Shown one piece after another: positions 15,229 to 56,633 of a stretch of DNA of 62,894 nucleotides (positions are counted from its first letter, which is position 1; the number at the start of each line of letters is the position of its first letter). The position numbers were made by a program, and so were the translations under genes. This DNA comes from Deltaproteobacteria bacterium (GTDB taxonomy: Bacteria; Desulfobacterota; DSM-4660; Desulfatiglandales; Desulfatiglandaceae), in NCBI GenBank assembly GCA_019307945.1, contig JAFDIS010000010.1, forward strand, positions 1 to 62,894, read 5' to 3'. Below the pieces are notes generated by a model. It had not been told where the DNA came from. It saw nothing but the letters and a program-made list of their open reading frames with translations, and ran no database searches.

Positions 15229-15959
15229 GGCCTGACCGCCCGGGCCAGGACCAGGCAGAAGACCCGGCCCGCACCTCGGCGTTTCAGGACCCCGGCACAT
15301 TCGCCCAGCGTGTTGCCCGTGGTCGCCACGTCGTCCACCAGCAGGATATCGAGGCCCTTGAGTGAATCCTTGCCGCGCACCTCGAAGGCGCGAACCACGT
15401 TCCTGCGGCGTTCCTCGCGGTCCAACCCTGTCTGAGGTTTCGTATATCTTACCCTGCAAAGCGTCGTGAAGTCCAGTTTCGCGTCCAGGGCCCGGGCAAC
15501 GTGTCGGGCCAGGAGCAGACTCTGATTGAACCCCCGCTCCCGCAGTTTCCTTGGGTGAAGGGGCACCGGCATGACGAGGGGGTCCCGGGCCTCGAGCCAC
15601 CCCAGGGCGAAGCGGGCAAGGAGGGGCCCCAGGACATGTGCAAGGCTGCTTTTGCCCCCGTATTTCAATCGGTGGATGGCGGTCATCAAGGCCCCCTCGT
15701 ACAGGTACGGGGCCCGGAGCGCATCGAATGCGGGCGCCTTTCGGAGGCACGGCTCACAGAGGTGGTCGGGTCCCTCCCCGGGGAAAGGGGTTCCGCAGCA
15801 GGGGCACAGGGGCGATGAGATTTCATGAAACCCGGAAAGGCAGGCGGCGCAAAAAGAAGACAGAGGGTCTTCCGAATCGGGAGCCGCGGCAAGGAAATCC
15901 AGGCAGACGGGACACCTGGGCGGGTAGATCAGGTTCAGGAGCGATGAGATGAGGTTCAT
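15225..15959 (-). CDS. comF: ComF-family phosphoribosyltransferase-like protein
   Basis: The 244-residue protein has an N-terminal zinc-binding region with four Cys pairs (CPVC, CAAC, CPCC, CEPC) and a C-terminal phosphoribosyltransferase domain with VDDVATTGNT. ComF proteins support natural transformation in some bacteria, but the family is widespread and often of unknown role. It overlaps both the upstream YkgJ gene and the downstream rfaE2 by 4 bp, showing tight coupling. Confidence 0.92.
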   Translation of the reverse strand: MNLISSLLNLIYPPRCPVCLDFLAAAPDSEDPLSSFCAACLSGFHEISSPLCPCCGTPFPGEGPDHLCEPCLRKAPAFDALRAPYLYEGALMTAIHRLKYGGKSSLAHVLGPLLARFALGWLEARDPLVMPVPLHPRKLRERGFNQSLLLARHVARALDAKLDFTTLCRVRYTKPQTGLDREERRRNVVRAFEVRGKDSLKGLDILLVDDVATTGNTLGECAGVLKRRGAGRVFCLVLARAVRP

Positions 15960-16327
15960 TCCCCGGACTGGCGGACAAAGTCCTCGAAACTACAGGATGG
16001 ATTGATGCCGGGGCAGGCGTCCTGGGCCGCTTTCCAGTTGTCTTCGTCCGCTACGATAGCGGGGAAAAAAGGCCAGAGCCTGCAGGGGCCGGGCTTGACC
16101 GGATGAATGAGACATAGTTTTTGAGGGTCAAAGAAGAGACAGTATCCGTCATCCCCGCAACGGATGTAGACCTTGCCGTTGCGATGCTCGCAGGATTCCC
16201 GGAGAAAGCTCTCACTGGGTTTTCCGAGGAATCGGGCGATCAGGTCGATTTCCCGCTCCTCCAGATGAATCCCTCCCTCCCCGTAGCAGCATGTCCCGCA
16301 CATCCGACATTCAAACGCCTTGGCCAT
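15956..16327 (-). CDS. YkgJ-family Cys-cluster protein
   Basis: This 123-residue protein has the family signature C-x2-C-x2-CC (CRMCGTCC, residues 7-14), then CGDDGYCLFFD, CLIHPVKPGPCRLWPFF and a final Cys pair. The eight or so cysteines probably bind an iron-sulfur cluster or zinc. It is a useful in-window reference: its GYC-LFFD Cys aligns with the in-frame UGA of the second YkgJ gene at 53.7 kb. It lies 3 bp after the fused helicase and overlaps comF. Confidence 0.9.
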   Translation of the reverse strand: MAKAFECRMCGTCCYGEGGIHLEEREIDLIARFLGKPSESFLRESCEHRNGKVYIRCGDDGYCLFFDPQKLCLIHPVKPGPCRLWPFFPAIVADEDNWKAAQDACPGINPSCSFEDFVRQSGE

Positions 16328-27860: not shown

Positions 27861-29285
27861 TTACGCACCCTCGGGCCGGTATGCCGCCAGCTTTCTTACG
27901 GCCCGGGCGGCCACCTTCAACTCACGATCCTGGATGGTGCGCACATCCATGAGGACCTGTTCCTTTTCCACGCGGGTGATCACGGGGGGATCATGGGAAC
28001 GCAGCCGCTGCTCCATGAAGGCCGAGGTCAGCCTGCCCGGGCTCAGACACACGGCGCGGCTGGGAAGATCGAGGAGTGGGAGGGCGCCACCCCCCACCTT
28101 GGAACTGGTATCGGTCAGAGTCACGGTGAAGTTCCTGGTGTCGAGATCGCCGATCAGGCGCCTCAGTCGCCGGGCCTTTCTCAGGAGAGAGCGCCGATCC
28201 TGCAACAGCATGCGCAGGGTGGGAATCTCGCGTATGGCGGTTTCCTCGTCGCGGTAGATCCGGAGGGTCTCCTCCAGGCCGATGAGGGTGAGTTTGTCGA
28301 TGCGAAGGGGCCGGGCGAGCTGGTTCTTCTTGACGGCTTCCACCAGGTCCTTGCGGCCCAGGATGATCCCGGCCTGGGGACCGCCCAGGAGCTTGTCACC
28401 GCTGAATGTCACCAGGTCCACCCCCTGGTCCAGGACCTCCTGCACCGTGGGTTCTCGAAGCAGCCCGTAGCGGCTGAAGTCCACGAAGCAGCCGCTTCCC
28501 AGGTCCTCCATCACGGGAATGCCGTGCCGCCTGCCCAGGGCCGCGAGGTCCGCACCTGAAACCTCCTGGGTGAACCCCACCACATGGAAATTGCTGGTGT
28601 GGACCTTGAGCAGAAGGGCGGTCTCCGGACCGATCACCTCCTCGTAGTCCCGGAGGTGGGTCTTGTTGGTTGTACCCACTTCCACCATCCTTGCGCCGCT
28701 CTTTCGCATGACCTCAGGGATGCGGAAGGAGCCCCCGATCTCCACGAGCTGACCCCGGGAGACCACCACCTCGCCCCCCCCGGCCAGGGTGTCCAGACAG
28801 AGGAGCACGGCGGCCGCATTGTTGTTCACCACCATGGCGTCTTCGGCGCCCGTGAGTTCCCTCAGGATCGCCTCCACGTGTGTGTAGCGGCTGCCCCTGC
28901 GGCCTTCATCCAGGTCGTATTCGAGGTTGCTGTACGCGCCCGCCAGGGGGCCGAAGCGGGCCAGGACACGCTCCGGTAGGATGGACCGGCCCAGGTTGGT
29001 GTGGACCACCACGCCCGTGGCATTGATCACGGACTGCAGGCTGGGGCGCGCGATTTCCTCCAGGGTATGGAGAGCACGGGCGGAGACGGCCTCCAGTTCC
29101 AGGGCGGCTTCGTCCCGCAGGGAGCCGTTTCGTATTTCCCGCCGCAGGTCTTCGAGCACCCGGTGCACGGCGCGCAGCGCCACGGAGCGCGGGAAACGGG
29201 ACAGGGCATCGGACAAGGGATGGGAGTCCAGGAGACGGTCTACACCGGGGATCTTACGGAACAGGTTCTGATTGTCCTCGCGCAT
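27861..29285 (-). CDS. selA: L-seryl-tRNA(Sec) selenium transferase
   Basis: This 474-residue PLP enzyme converts Ser-tRNA(Sec) to Sec-tRNA(Sec) with selenophosphate. It has INATGVVVHTNLGRS, YSNLEYDLDEGRRGSRY, MVVNNNAAAVLL and the PLP lysine in FSGDKLLGGPQAG. ATG 29285 fits the family start; the frame runs 31 codons further upstream without similarity. Its presence means the organism probably makes selenoproteins, which bears on the in-frame UGA at 53939. SelB, SelD and tRNA(Sec) are not in the window. Confidence 0.96.
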   Translation of the reverse strand: MREDNQNLFRKIPGVDRLLDSHPLSDALSRFPRSVALRAVHRVLEDLRREIRNGSLRDEAALELEAVSARALHTLEEIARPSLQSVINATGVVVHTNLGRSILPERVLARFGPLAGAYSNLEYDLDEGRRGSRYTHVEAILRELTGAEDAMVVNNNAAAVLLCLDTLAGGGEVVVSRGQLVEIGGSFRIPEVMRKSGARMVEVGTTNKTHLRDYEEVIGPETALLLKVHTSNFHVVGFTQEVSGADLAALGRRHGIPVMEDLGSGCFVDFSRYGLLREPTVQEVLDQGVDLVTFSGDKLLGGPQAGIILGRKDLVEAVKKNQLARPLRIDKLTLIGLEETLRIYRDEETAIREIPTLRMLLQDRRSLLRKARRLRRLIGDLDTRNFTVTLTDTSSKVGGGALPLLDLPSRAVCLSPGRLTSAFMEQRLRSHDPPVITRVEKEQVLMDVRTIQDRELKVAARAVRKLAAYRPEGA

Positions 29286-29396
29286 GAATCCGGGGGTCCT
29301 TTCCAGTGGTGGCGATACATTCCGCCTCAATATAGGCCGGAACGGCGCGGCGGTCAATCGGATTGAGGGTTGTCCCACGTATGCGGAGGATTTGCC

Positions 29397-32977: not shown

Positions 32978-34216
32978 CTACCCTCGCCTGCCCCGGTCGA
33001 TTCCCAGGAAATCGGGCATCAAATCGTGCCCCCGCTCGTAGAAGAGCCCCGACCCGGCAGCGGCCTTTTCCGTGAAGCTCGGCCCTCCGGTGTTGCCGGC
33101 AAGTTGCGCCTTGTCTGCCCAGGCGAAGGGTGTGGGCTCGTTGGTGTGGGTCTTGACGCTCACAGGGGTCAGGTGGTCGCCCGCCACGAGGATCCGGTAG
33201 TCGGCAAAGGCCTCCAGGCCCTCCAGCACCCTCCCCACCACCTTTTCGTCGAAGGCCTCGATGGCCTCCACCTTTTCGTGGGGATCGGCGGCGTGGCCCG
33301 CCTCGTCGGGCGCTTCCACGTGCACGAACACGAAATCCAGCCGCTCCAGGGCCTCCAGCGCCCCATTCGCCTTGCCCAGGTAGTTGGTGTCCAGGTACCC
33401 GGTGGCACCCTCCACGTGGATGGATTCGAACCCCATGTAGATGCCTATCCCCTTGATCAGGTCCACGGCGGAGATCACTCCCCCCCGCAGGCCGAACCGG
33501 TCCAGGAAGGGCGGGATGGCGGGGCGTCTTCCCTGACCCCAGAGCCAGATGGAATCAGCGGTCTTGAGTCCTCTTTTTCGTCGTTCCCGGTTGACCGGAT
33601 GGGCCTTGAGCAGTTCCCAGGATCCGCGCATCATGGGCACCACCGGGTTCCCGTTTCCTGCGTTCAAGTAGGGAGCCATGTTCCGGTCCAGGACATCGTG
33701 GGGCGGAATGGTCTCGGCTTGCTCGGGTCCCTCGTCCCACACCAGGAGGTGTCGATAGGCCACGCCGGGGTAGACGGCCAGGCCGGGACGCTCGAGGCCG
33801 GACCTCAGGTCCTCCACGATCCTCCGGCCTTCGGCCGTGGATATGTCCCCGGCGCTGTGGCTCAACATGATGATCTCGTCATGCGACCGGAACTCCAGGC
33901 TCACCAGGTTCATACGAAAGGCCACCTGGTGTGGCCCCAGTTCCACCCCCATGCTGGATGCCTCCAGGGGTGCACGGCCCGTGTGGTACCGGGCTGGGTC
34001 ATAGCCCAGGAGGCAGAGGTTGGCGATATCGCTGCCGGGCTCCATCCCCTCCGGGATGGTCCTGGCGAGGCCGATGCCGCAGGCCGCGATCCGGTCCATG
34101 TTGGGCGTGCGGGCCGCCTCCAGGGGGGTCCTGCCGCCCAGTTCCTCCACCGGGTAATCCCCCATGCCGTCGCCGATCAGGACCACGTAGCGGGTATCGG
34201 GCCTAGGCCTGTCCAT
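32978..34216 (-). CDS. apgM: Cofactor-independent phosphoglycerate mutase-like protein, proposed homoserine kinase
   Basis: The 412-residue protein is an alkaline-phosphatase-superfamily ApgM: VVLIGDGMGDYPVEELGG, RTPNMDRIAACGIG, DIANLCLLGYDP, HVEAPDEAGHAADPHEKVEAI and AGDHLTPVSVKTHT hold the metal ligands. Its start overlaps hom by 14 bp. Because of this common linkage the subfamily has been proposed to replace ThrB as homoserine kinase; no other thrB is seen here. It could instead serve glycolysis. Confidence 0.9.
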   Translation of the reverse strand: MDRPRPDTRYVVLIGDGMGDYPVEELGGRTPLEAARTPNMDRIAACGIGLARTIPEGMEPGSDIANLCLLGYDPARYHTGRAPLEASSMGVELGPHQVAFRMNLVSLEFRSHDEIIMLSHSAGDISTAEGRRIVEDLRSGLERPGLAVYPGVAYRHLLVWDEGPEQAETIPPHDVLDRNMAPYLNAGNGNPVVPMMRGSWELLKAHPVNRERRKRGLKTADSIWLWGQGRRPAIPPFLDRFGLRGGVISAVDLIKGIGIYMGFESIHVEGATGYLDTNYLGKANGALEALERLDFVFVHVEAPDEAGHAADPHEKVEAIEAFDEKVVGRVLEGLEAFADYRILVAGDHLTPVSVKTHTNEPTPFAWADKAQLAGNTGGPSFTEKAAAGSGLFYERGHDLMPDFLGIDRGRRG

Positions 34217-51639: not shown

Positions 51640-52890
51640 ATGGATGTAGTGATTCTTACGGTTGCGACCATCTTGGGCTTTTACATGGCCGCCAATATCG
51701 GATCCAACGACCTTGCCAACGCCATGGGAACGTCCGTCGGATCCTGTGCCATCACGCTGAAACAGGCGGTCGTCATTTCCATCGTGGCCAACGCCCTGGG
51801 AGCGGTGCTTGCCGGTGGGTATGTCACCGGGACCATCAGCAAGGGGATCATCGACCCATCGCTCCTGGCGCACAACCCCAATCTGCTGATGCTGGGCATG
51901 TTCGCCTCCCTGCTGGCCGCGGGGCTTTGGGTGAATCTTGCAACTTATATGGCGCTCCCGGTTTCAACGTCCCACGCCATCGTGGGCGCGGTGGTGGGAT
52001 TCGGGATCCTGAGCGTGGGTGCGGGGGCCGTGACCTGGAACAAGATCATCCTGATCGTGGCAAGCTGGATCACCTCTCCCGCCATAGGCGCATTAATAGC
52101 AGGCGGCCTGTACAGGTTCATCGACAGGAAGATGATGTCTGCGGAAGACCCGCTCAAGGCCACGCATCGCTATGTCCCCTACATGGTCTTCATGGTCTTT
52201 CTGGTCCTGATCCTGTCGTTCATCTTCAAGGGCCTTAAGAATCTGAATCTGCACGTGGGGTTTTTCCAGACCGTCCTGCTGGCCATTCCCTTTTCCGTGC
52301 TGGGGGGGGCACTGGGCCTCTGGTGGGTCCGGAGACAGGCGCGCCCCGAGTGCGCCCTTAGACCGGAGCAGGAGGGGTTCACGCCCCTGGACAGGCTTTT
52401 CGCCCAGCTCCAGGTGCTCACGGCCTGCTACGTGGCCTTTGCCCACGGCGCCAACGACGTGGCGAACGCCGTGGGGCCGCTGGCTGCGATCTTTTCGGTG
52501 GTACAGACTAAGGCGGTCGCGCTGAAGGTGGAGGTCCCCTTCTGGATGCTCCTGGGAGGCGGCATGGCCGTTGGGGGCGGGCTCATGCTTTTCGGGACGC
52601 GCGTCATGGAAACCATCGGAAAGAACATCACTGAACTCACCCCCTTGCGCGGCTTTTGCGCCGAGTTCGGAGCGGCCACCACGATCCTCATTTGCTCCCG
52701 CATGGGGCTTCCCATCTCCACCACCCACGTGCTGGTGGGATCGGTTGTGGGCGTGGGGATCATGCGGGGAATGGGGACCCTCGACCTCCGGGTCCTGAAG
52801 AATATCGCTCTGTCCTGGGGCGTCACCTTGCCGTTCACGGTCCTTTTGTCGATGCTTTTTTATAAACTTTTTGTTTATATGCTGTTATAA
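51640..52890 (+). CDS. PiT-family inorganic phosphate transporter
   Basis: The 416-residue membrane protein has about ten hydrophobic segments and the duplicated PiT signature: ANIGSNDLANAMGTSVGS in the N half and FAHGANDVANAVGPLAAI in the C half, each with the GANDVAN core. It imports phosphate with a cation. The DUF47 gene 155 bp downstream is its usual partner. Confidence 0.94.
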   Translation: MDVVILTVATILGFYMAANIGSNDLANAMGTSVGSCAITLKQAVVISIVANALGAVLAGGYVTGTISKGIIDPSLLAHNPNLLMLGMFASLLAAGLWVNLATYMALPVSTSHAIVGAVVGFGILSVGAGAVTWNKIILIVASWITSPAIGALIAGGLYRFIDRKMMSAEDPLKATHRYVPYMVFMVFLVLILSFIFKGLKNLNLHVGFFQTVLLAIPFSVLGGALGLWWVRRQARPECALRPEQEGFTPLDRLFAQLQVLTACYVAFAHGANDVANAVGPLAAIFSVVQTKAVALKVEVPFWMLLGGGMAVGGGLMLFGTRVMETIGKNITELTPLRGFCAEFGAATTILICSRMGLPISTTHVLVGSVVGVGIMRGMGTLDLRVLKNIALSWGVTLPFTVLLSMLFYKLFVYMLL

Positions 52891-53045: not shown

Positions 53046-53711
53046 ATGCGGCTTTTACTCAGCTCATTGTTTCACACGTCTCCGTTTGAGAACCTGCAGA
53101 AGCATGCGGACATGGTGCGGGACTGCGCGAAACTCTTCAGAGAGGCCGCCCTGATGCGTACGGGCGAGGAGCCGGCCAAATTCGAAGAGATCACCGACAA
53201 GGTGGCCCATCTGGAAAGCAGGGCGGACGCCGTGAAACGTAATATCAGAAACCATCTCCCCCGCGGTGTCCTGATGCCCGTGGACAAGTTCCAATTCCTC
53301 CAGTATGTCAGGGAACAGGATAAGGTCCTGGACGAAGTGGAAGAGGCCTTGCTCTGGCTTTCCCTCAGATCGGAGCCCATACCGGAAGCGGTGGCCGCGG
53401 ATTTCAAGGACCTGGTGGAAGCCGTTATTCCCCCCATTGAAAAGCTTTCCGACCTGGTGGCCATGGCCACCGATTTCTTCAAGAGCCGAACGGAGGGGCA
53501 GCGCACCCGGATGAAAAGCCTGATCCAGGATATCCGGCAGCACGAAAACGAGGCCGACTTTCTGGAGCATGAGCTCAAGGTGAAGATCTTCCAGGAGATA
53601 GATGACGCCCTGGCCGTATTTCACCTCGTGCGTCTGGTGGAGATCGTGGGTCACATTGCGGATCATGCCGAGAACGCGTCCGACAGGATGCGAGCCATGA
53701 TCGCACGGTGA
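53046..53711 (+). CDS. DUF47/PhoU-like phosphate-transport accessory protein
   Basis: The 221-residue all-helical protein matches the DUF47 (TIGR00153) family, a PhoU-like helical bundle with metal-binding acidic residues (EITDKVAHLESRAD, DIRQHENEADFLEHELK). It regulates or gates the PiT transporter. A GGGGGAGGGGG stretch lies before the ATG. Its stop overlaps the start of the following YkgJ-type gene (GTGA). Confidence 0.92.
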   Translation: MRLLLSSLFHTSPFENLQKHADMVRDCAKLFREAALMRTGEEPAKFEEITDKVAHLESRADAVKRNIRNHLPRGVLMPVDKFQFLQYVREQDKVLDEVEEALLWLSLRSEPIPEAVAADFKDLVEAVIPPIEKLSDLVAMATDFFKSRTEGQRTRMKSLIQDIRQHENEADFLEHELKVKIFQEIDDALAVFHLVRLVEIVGHIADHAENASDRMRAMIAR

Positions 53712-54397
53712 CAGCCATGGAGGAGGGTAGGAGCTTTTGCATCCGATGCGGGGAGTGCTGCCTGGCCGCCGGCCCGACCCTCCAACGCCCGGACTTGATC
53801 CTCGTGAGGGAAGGGGCCATTGCGCCCGAAAACCTCTTTACGATCCGCCGGGGCGAGGTGGTCAGGGACAATGTGCATGGGGGTCTGGCGCGAACGGGCG
53901 TGGAAATGGTGAAGGTCCGCGAACGGGAGGACGGGGGCTGAGTCTTTTACGACGCCGCGGGCTCCCGCTGCCGGATATACGAACAAAGGCCGGCCCAGTG
54001 CAGGGCCCTTGCCTGCTGGGACAGCACCGAGTTCATGGCCGTTTTCAAGGGGCCGCGCGCCACCCGCTGGGACCTGGTGCGGGACGGTGCTCTCCTGGCC
54101 CTGATGCGCGAGCATGAAGCACGGTGCGCCTACGAAACCCTGGCCAGCCTGGTGGCCGAAATACCGCAACAGGGAGACCGTGCCGTGGATCGCCTCCTGG
54201 AGATCTTGCGGTTCGACGCACATATCCGCCCATTTACCGCCGGCAAACTGGGCCTTGATCCCAAGCAGATGGATTTTCTCTATGGCAGGCCGCTTACCCG
54301 GACCATCGAGGTGTTCGGATTGACGGTGAGACGGGAGCCGGACGGCACATTTTTGCTCACCACGGTGGATGACCGGGAAAGGCGCAGTGTGAAATAG
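53708..54397 (+). CDS. YkgJ-family Cys-cluster protein with in-frame UGA: candidate selenoprotein
   Basis: The frame runs from GTG 53708 (overlapping the DUF47 stop) to 54397, interrupted once, by TGA at 53939-53941 (codon 78). Both sides belong to one YkgJ-type protein of 229 residues. Before the UGA is C-x2-C-x2-CC (Cys11, 14, 17, 18). After it are U78-VFYD, Cys88-RIYEQRP, Cys98 and ALAC103W. In the family, and in the other YkgJ gene of this window (GYC-LFFD, then C-LIHP), position 78 is a conserved cysteine. Reading UGA as selenocysteine restores every expected ligand. The part after the UGA lacks its own plausible start near the break and is full length. The alternative is a nonsense mutation in a formerly normal gene. 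Confidence 0.8.
53954..53971 (+). other. Candidate bacterial SECIS hairpin
   Basis: Counting the UGA as +1, GCGG (+19 to +22) pairs with CCGC (+27 to +30) around a GCUC loop. The lower stem GC pairs with GC (+16/17 with +32/33) across one C-U mismatch. The loop G is at +23, the position of the key loop G in the Escherichia coli fdhF element. The hairpin is short, so the call is tentative. Confidence 0.45.
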
Positions 54398-54869: not shown

Positions 54870-56633
54870 CTAGAACAGGCCGGTCACCTTGCCGGTGTTG
54901 ACGTCGACGTCCACACGCCGGAAGGCCGGGTTGGAACTGGTGCCGGGCATCAGGCTGATGGTGCCGGCGCAGGGGCAGAGGAACTTGGCTCCCGAGTAGA
55001 TCAGCACGTCGCGGATGGGCAGCCTCCAGCCCTTGGGAACACCCTTGAGGGCCGGGTCGTGGGAGAGGCTCAGGTGCGTCTTGACCATCATGGTGGCGTA
55101 CTCGTCGTACTTGGAATCGCCTTCCAGCATCTTTGCCTTGGCCTCAGCCTCGGGCAGCCAGTCCACGCCGTCGGCGCCGTACACCTCGCGCGCTATTATG
55201 TCCACACGATCACGGAGTTTCGTTTCCAGGGGGTAGAGGAACTTGAACTCGTTCTCCTCATCACATGCCTCTTTCACCGCCTCTGCGAATTCGATGGCGC
55301 CGTCACCGCCGTCCGCCCAGTGGGTGGACACGGCACAGCGAGCCTTTGCTTCTTCCGCATATTTACGGACCAGGGCGATCTCGTCCTTGGTGTCGGTGTG
55401 GAAGCAGTTGATGCAGACCACCGGGTTGATCCCCGCCTTGCGGATCGTGTTGATGTGATGGACCATGTTGGAAACGCCCTTTTCGAGGAGTTCCAGGTTT
55501 TCTTTGGTGTAGGCCTCATCCAGGGGGATACCGGCCACGACCTTGGGACCGCCGCCGTGCATCTTGAGAGCGCGGATCGTGGTGGTGAGCACGGAGACGT
55601 GGGGCTTCAGGCCGCTATAGCGACACTTGACATTCCAGAATTTTTCAAACCCGATATCCGCGCCGAAACCACTCTCGGTCACATGGTAATCGAACATCTT
55701 GAGGCCGATGCGGTCGGCGATGATGGAGGACTGCCCCACCGCGATGTTGGCGAACGGCCCTGCATGCACCATGCACGGCTGATACTCGGCCGTACACATG
55801 AGGGTGGGATTGATGGTGTTTCTCATCCACGCGGTCATGGCGCCGCCCACTTCCAGGTCGCCTGTGGTCACGGCCTTTCCGCTCTTGTCGAAGGCCAAGG
55901 TGATCTCGTCAAGACGCTTGCGCAGGTCCGCCAAGTCCCTGACAACGGAAAGGATGGCCATCAATTCGGAGGAGACGGCGATCCCGAACTTGGACTGCAT
56001 GGTGAAGCCGTCGTACCGTCCTCCCAGACCGATTACGATATTCCGCAGGGACTGGGCGCAGAAATCCAGGATCCAACCCATTTCCACGCGGGTGGGGTCG
56101 ATGTTGAGACGCCGCATACCCGTCAGACGCTGGAGTTGTTCGTCATTGTAGTTACGCTCGTGCTGCATCCGGGCGGTGAGAGCCACCATGGCCAGGTTAT
56201 GGGCGTTCATTATGTCGTTGATGTCCCCGGTCAATCCGAGGGAAAATTCCGTCATGGGTATGAGGATGGAATTTCCGCCGCCAGCCGCGGTTCCCTTGAT
56301 ATTCATGGTGGGTCCGCCTGAAGGCTGCCGCAGGCATCCGCCCACGTTCAGGCCGAGTTTGCCCATTCCTTCCATCAGGCCCACCGACGTGGTGCTTTTT
56401 CCTTCACCGAGCGGCGTGGGGGTAATGGCCGTGACCTCGATGTATTTTCCGTCAGGTTTGTCTTTGAGCCTGTTGATGATCTTCAGAAAATCCAGTTTGG
56501 CCAACCTGCCCATGGGCAGGACCTCTTCCTTTTCCAGACCGAGTTTTTCTTGCCACTCATCGGGCATGGGCATGTTCTTCTCGGCAGCCTCTGAAATCTG
56601 CCAGTCTTGCATCTTTACTGCGTCGTAGGCCAT
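54870..56633 (-). CDS. fhs: Formate-tetrahydrofolate ligase
   Basis: The 587-residue enzyme makes 10-formyl-tetrahydrofolate from formate with ATP, a step of the methyl branch of the Wood-Ljungdahl pathway and of C1 supply. It has the P-loop [48 protein letters not shown] and [22 protein letters not shown] lies before the ATG. It is transcribed alone, with a structured leader and a terminator. Confidence 0.97.

Follow-up and report, generated by a model that had tools for sequence, protein, structure and literature searches.

A YkgJ-family gene with an in-frame UGA at an invariant cysteine codon in a selenocysteine-decoding deltaproteobacterium, probably not a new selenoprotein

The DNA analyzed here (the window) is a stretch of 62,894 nucleotides, contig JAFDIS010000010.1 of the deltaproteobacterial assembly GCA_019307945.1 (4.16 Mb, 185 contigs, 98.5% complete). 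It carries a gene of the YkgJ type, ykgJ, that is interrupted by a single TGA and is surrounded by the following features:

51640..52890, plus strand: PHO4-family phosphate transporter gene (pit), a neighbor conserved in relatives
53046..53711, plus strand: PhoU-like (PhoU_div/DUF47) gene, overlapping the GTG start of ykgJ, a neighbor conserved in relatives
53717..54397, plus strand: YkgJ-type (PF03692) Cys-cluster gene with one internal TGA, from frame, profile and orthologue alignment
53738..53761, plus strand: upstream Cys cluster CIRCGECC (C11, C14, C17, C18), all invariant in the orthologue alignment
53939..53941, plus strand: in-frame TGA at the codon of an invariant Cys, numbered 78 from GTG 53708 and 75 from ATG 53717
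53954..53971, plus strand: hairpin GC.GCGG-GCUC-CCGC.GC, 4-nt loop at 53961-53964 (19 nt past the UGA), -7.9 kcal/mol
53969..54016, plus strand: downstream invariant Cys C88, C98 and C103 (CRIYEQRPAQCRALAC), from the orthologue alignment
54870..56633, minus strand: formate--tetrahydrofolate ligase gene (fhs), convergent with ykgJ, a neighbor conserved in relatives
15956..16327, minus strand: second YkgJ-family gene, uninterrupted and with the corresponding Cys, 'GYCLFFDPQKLCLIHPVKPGPC'

The frame at 53708-54397(+) has TGA 53939-53941 as its sole internal stop; beyond it, the frame stays open for 151 codons and ends with TAG. The product read through this codon matches the PF03692 profile (CxxCxxCC) with 47.7 bits, the gathering cut-off being 23 bits, and the match runs across the TGA (residues 11-109), which confirms the claim of a preliminary description of this DNA that one YkgJ-type protein is split by one in-frame TGA. 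The homology of the protein is certainly beyond chance. The start is probably ATG 53717, which is residue 4 of the frame first described, while the alternative start, GTG 53708, shares bases with the stop of the PhoU-like gene upstream; the original numbering of the interrupted codon as 78 thus holds when counted from the GTG, but the codon is residue 75 from the likelier ATG. The read-through product is about 226 residues long and extends C-terminally past the Pfam domain. As pit and phoU upstream and the convergent fhs downstream also adjoin the ykgJ orthologue in many relatives, ykgJ is a real conserved gene rather than a chance frame. The second YkgJ gene, cited earlier for its Cys at the matching site, was found as described. 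Elsewhere in the window, at 32980(-), a phosphoglycerate mutase frame reads just past its stop as an (LVYLVCLVFL)n simple repeat.

The replaced residue was examined in an alignment of 29 orthologues (43-55% identity), in which the TGA column is Cys in every sequence, so that the earlier assignment of the UGA to a conserved Cys is borne out. Eight Cys are invariant in this set (C11, C14, C17, C18, C78, C88, C98, and C103), seven of which are kept in ykgJ, the eighth position being the UGA. With the UGA counted as Cys, ykgJ retains all 55 positions that are conserved in at least 90% of the orthologues, and an old pseudogene was rejected as an explanation, since every conserved position is retained and no decay is present on either side of the TGA. 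The lack of decay implies that the UGA is decoded, or is very young, or is an error. The eight invariant Cys suggest that the product probably holds a zinc or Fe-S site, in which Cys78 might plausibly serve as a metal or cluster ligand. No solved structure homologous to the YkgJ group was detected by profile, and a single-sequence structure model of the product was too poor to use (pLDDT 39).

The genome decodes UGA as Sec. The preliminary description had noted selA in the window and had considered Sec decoding probable, proposing that selB, selD, and tRNA(Sec) be looked up elsewhere in the genome; selA was confirmed, the other three are all present, and further Sec genes support the conclusion. 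The assembly contains a tRNA-Sec (73 bits), selB (383 bits), a selD gene that itself contains a TGA, and fdhA, likewise with a TGA, and scanning 2.18 Mb of the genome for coding potential revealed further TGA-split genes, namely three hdrA, mvhD/flpD, and a prdB/grdB-like gene. Together with an FdhA-like molybdopterin oxidoreductase (Mo-enzyme), eight probable Sec genes (fdhA, selD, three hdrA, mvhD, prdB-like, and the Mo-enzyme) were recognized:

27861..29378 of the window, minus strand: selA, selenocysteine synthase (PF03841, 524 bits)
L074:13752-14624, plus strand: prdB/grdB-like Sec gene, GG(U/A) apical loop 17-23 nt after the UGA
L121:14504 and 19115(-), L160:15016 and 19580(-), L072:4077(+), L045(-): hdrA (three copies), mvhD, fdhA, and selD, GG(U/A) apical loop 17-23 nt past the UGA
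L054:682-3027 (genome contig C55), minus strand: FdhA-like molybdopterin oxidoreductase with in-frame TGA

In the Mo-enzyme, the TGA takes the place of the second Cys of the N-terminal 4Fe-4S motif (TSCIL-U-ANLCGLEV) and precedes a SECIS like those at the other Sec sites of the genome (AGGUC loop, 7 bp, +19). This gene is a far stronger candidate for Sec than ykgJ; if its UGA is Sec, Sec would be a 4Fe-4S ligand. Three other observations were made in the same genome: a cobalamin riboswitch at L074:3584-3800(-) (RF00174, 85.6 bits); a thiolase-like segment without obvious start at L130:4887(+), which lies in frame past the TGA ending a likely methylmalonyl-CoA mutase gene and is possibly a remnant; and a Ser/Thr-kinase-like fragment at L120:133(+), on the edge of genome contig C40, with an in-frame TGA near the contig end.

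Given such a genome, the UGA of ykgJ may be decoded as Sec by SelB and tRNA-Sec with the help of the hairpin at 53954-53971, following a recent, lineage-specific conversion of Cys to Sec. This is regarded as a tentative possibility, and it is favored by the complete machinery (tRNA-Sec, selA, selB, and selD), by the exact match of the UGA to an invariant Cys, by a gene otherwise intact and without decay, and by the conserved pit-phoU-ykgJ neighborhood.

The short hairpin with a loop G at +23 was confirmed (G at 53961, the U of UGA being 1). The structure, whose stem has only 4 contiguous bp beneath the loop and then a mismatch, fits only the loose bSECIS model, i.e., the loosest published limits (PMC13188914), and the same loose test was passed after 51 of 272 (19%) ordinary Cys codons of the window genes, 13 of the 272 having the loop at 17-21 nt. 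Synonymous recoding of the ykgJ peptide with the codon usage of the genome yielded an equally stable hairpin in 46-66 of 300 trials (15-22%); fdhA (123-142/300) and the Mo-enzyme (61-75/300) performed no better, and the recoding test alone therefore does not discriminate. A more telling feature is the loop itself, which is GGUCU in fdhA, AGGU in all three hdrA, GGA in mvhD, GGUCG in the prdB-like gene, GGA in selD, and AGGUC in the Mo-enzyme. GG(U/A) at the loop start, at +17 to +23, is present at 8/8 of these other Sec sites versus 6/272 control codons, a contrast that somewhat favors those sites as the loop type was defined after viewing them, whereas the ykgJ loop is GCUC. In favor of Sec, a loose hairpin occurs at the same place in just one of the 29 Cys-containing orthologues, although most of these have a lower GC content than ykgJ (64%). 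Rfam gave nothing meaningful at the UGA site. As positive evidence for Sec, the hairpin was rejected as non-specific in view of the ordinary Cys codons and the recoding trials, and the RNA evidence on ykgJ is neutral overall.

A second UGA was looked for in relatives, through PF03692 in the family, in a sample of the phylum, and by a sequence pattern. The preliminary description had proposed aligning close homologues to see whether others have UGA at codon 78; none has, and Cys was found throughout. UGA at this codon was absent from the 29 aligned orthologues, from the PF03692 matches listed from 46 genomes of the same family (own genome excepted), 45 of which have at least one PF03692 member, and from a phylum sample of 395 genomes, in which 118 genomes besides this one had a match (119 in all). 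A homologue with one TGA in genome G402 was considered as a second case and rejected, the segment around the Cys having no stop. An exact pattern for UGA in the ykgJ motif gave six matches in a collection of 84,980 species, all of them frame-broken chance occurrences; because the pattern requires the nine-residue spacing and NTN-TWY following the UGA, a variant spaced differently could escape it, and the scan may leave out records of the own genome or of one very near. Among the genomes searched, the UGA of ykgJ is thus a singleton, which counts against Sec. Published practice is that at least one further UGA-containing homologue is needed to exclude sequencing error (PMC1088965) and that clusters in which just one sequence has UGA are treated as candidates, because a sequencing error may lie behind it (PMC1088965; likewise PMC2398784); under this rule, ykgJ is a "candidate". 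The pattern named at the outset as speaking against a selenoprotein was found in part: relatives all have Cys and the UGA occurs in one genome alone, but there are no other disabling mutations and the sel genes are present.

Since no second UGA is found and the hairpin is unlike the genome's own Sec signals, a mutation or error is somewhat likelier than a new selenoprotein. ykgJ would then be an ordinary Cys-type YkgJ/CxxCxxCC protein gene with eight invariant Cys, in which one base of one Cys codon was changed, most simply from TGC to TGA, either because a nonsense mutation arose very recently in the population sampled or because the consensus sequence of the assembly contains an error; the UGA would be a stop or a typing error and selenium would not be involved. 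We consider this one-base change somewhat more likely than Sec; the weights given here to the two readings are judgements, not measured probabilities.

That such interruptions occur in this assembly is illustrated by a thiol peroxidase (tpx) gene at L081:14925 (genome contig C121:14925), which lies mid-contig and is intact but for one in-frame TAA, with a read-through match of 153 bits to NF001808. This TAA is undoubtedly a nonsense codon, by mutation or assembly error, and because TAA cannot encode Sec it shows that nonsense interruption does occur in the assembly. If the original codons were GAA in tpx and TGC in ykgJ, as we infer, both changes would be G:C to T:A. In addition, that the TGA falls on an invariant Cys is weaker evidence than is apparent: ykgJ is Cys-rich and has few other codons one base away from TGA, so that 8 of the 16 one-base changes leading to TGA (TGC being assumed; 60 lead to any stop) hit invariant Cys codons. 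As a rough prior, deep-Sep reported 12 new Sec genes, belonging to nine families, from 20 genomes that use Sec; three of these families had no UGA homologues (PMC12013277). A chance TGA at a conserved Cys per genome of similar quality is estimated to be of the same order as this rate, an expectation drawn from the one TAA found, with limited sensitivity; the background rate of nonsense codons is only roughly known. Against a nonsense change or error, interrupted genes are rare, as no stop interrupts any of the 89 ABC_tran or the 109 Response_reg matches of the genome; the genome has at least seven UGA-bearing genes of known selenoprotein families; and it contains no second intact copy of the interrupted ykgJ.

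It is also conceivable, but very improbable, that the UGA is read in some other way (leaky or near-cognate read-through) or that the two halves act as separate proteins. The unbroken coding quality downstream of the TGA would agree with either; however, no sign of another UGA-decoding tRNA was seen, and a split would detach the CxxCGxCC cluster from the three remaining invariant Cys, C88, C98, and C103, all of which precede ATG 54035, the first start listed after the TGA.

Taken together, the gene and its TGA are real in the sequence, but ykgJ is probably not a selenoprotein. The earlier proposal of a new YkgJ selenoprotein keeps on its side the Sec machinery, the invariant Cys, the intact gene, and the absence of the family from a published list of selenoprotein families, and has against it the lack of a UGA homologue, the non-specific hairpin, and the occurrence of nonsense in the assembly. 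That ykgJ represents a new selenoprotein family, in which Sec very recently and in one lineage replaced one of eight invariant and probably metal-binding Cys with a SECIS of non-GG-loop type, is rather doubtful. Whether such a family had been catalogued was left undecided at first; PF03692/YkgJ is absent from the 119 selenoprotein families of a 2026 review (PMC13188914), which indicates that it is possibly uncatalogued, and no paper in the literature searched pairs selenoprotein with YkgJ or COG0727. If the ykgJ UGA is Sec, an uncatalogued family would be added to the prokaryotic selenoproteome, Sec would take a place within a Cys cluster, and a Cys-to-Sec switch would have been caught soon after the event. 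If it is not, the case illustrates why a Cys/UGA pair in a Cys-rich gene should be called a selenoprotein only after another UGA homologue has been found and the SECIS elements of the same genome have been compared.

Compared with known systems, ykgJ shares with the bacterial selenoproteins recognized from Cys/UGA pairs (PMC13188914, PMC12013277) a UGA in place of a conserved Cys, a full Sec machinery, and a hairpin after the codon, whereas it differs from them in being without a second UGA homologue and without the GG(U/A) loop of its own genome. For published UGA/Cys calls without UGA homologues elsewhere, a bSECIS-like structure was reported 3' of the UGA, whereas the hairpin of ykgJ is barely distinguishable from background. 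With the YkgJ/UPF0153 family (PF03692, putative zinc- or iron-chelating domain), it has in common the profile match over the TGA and the pattern of eight invariant Cys, and it departs from this family by the UGA standing for one of these Cys and by its C-terminal extension.
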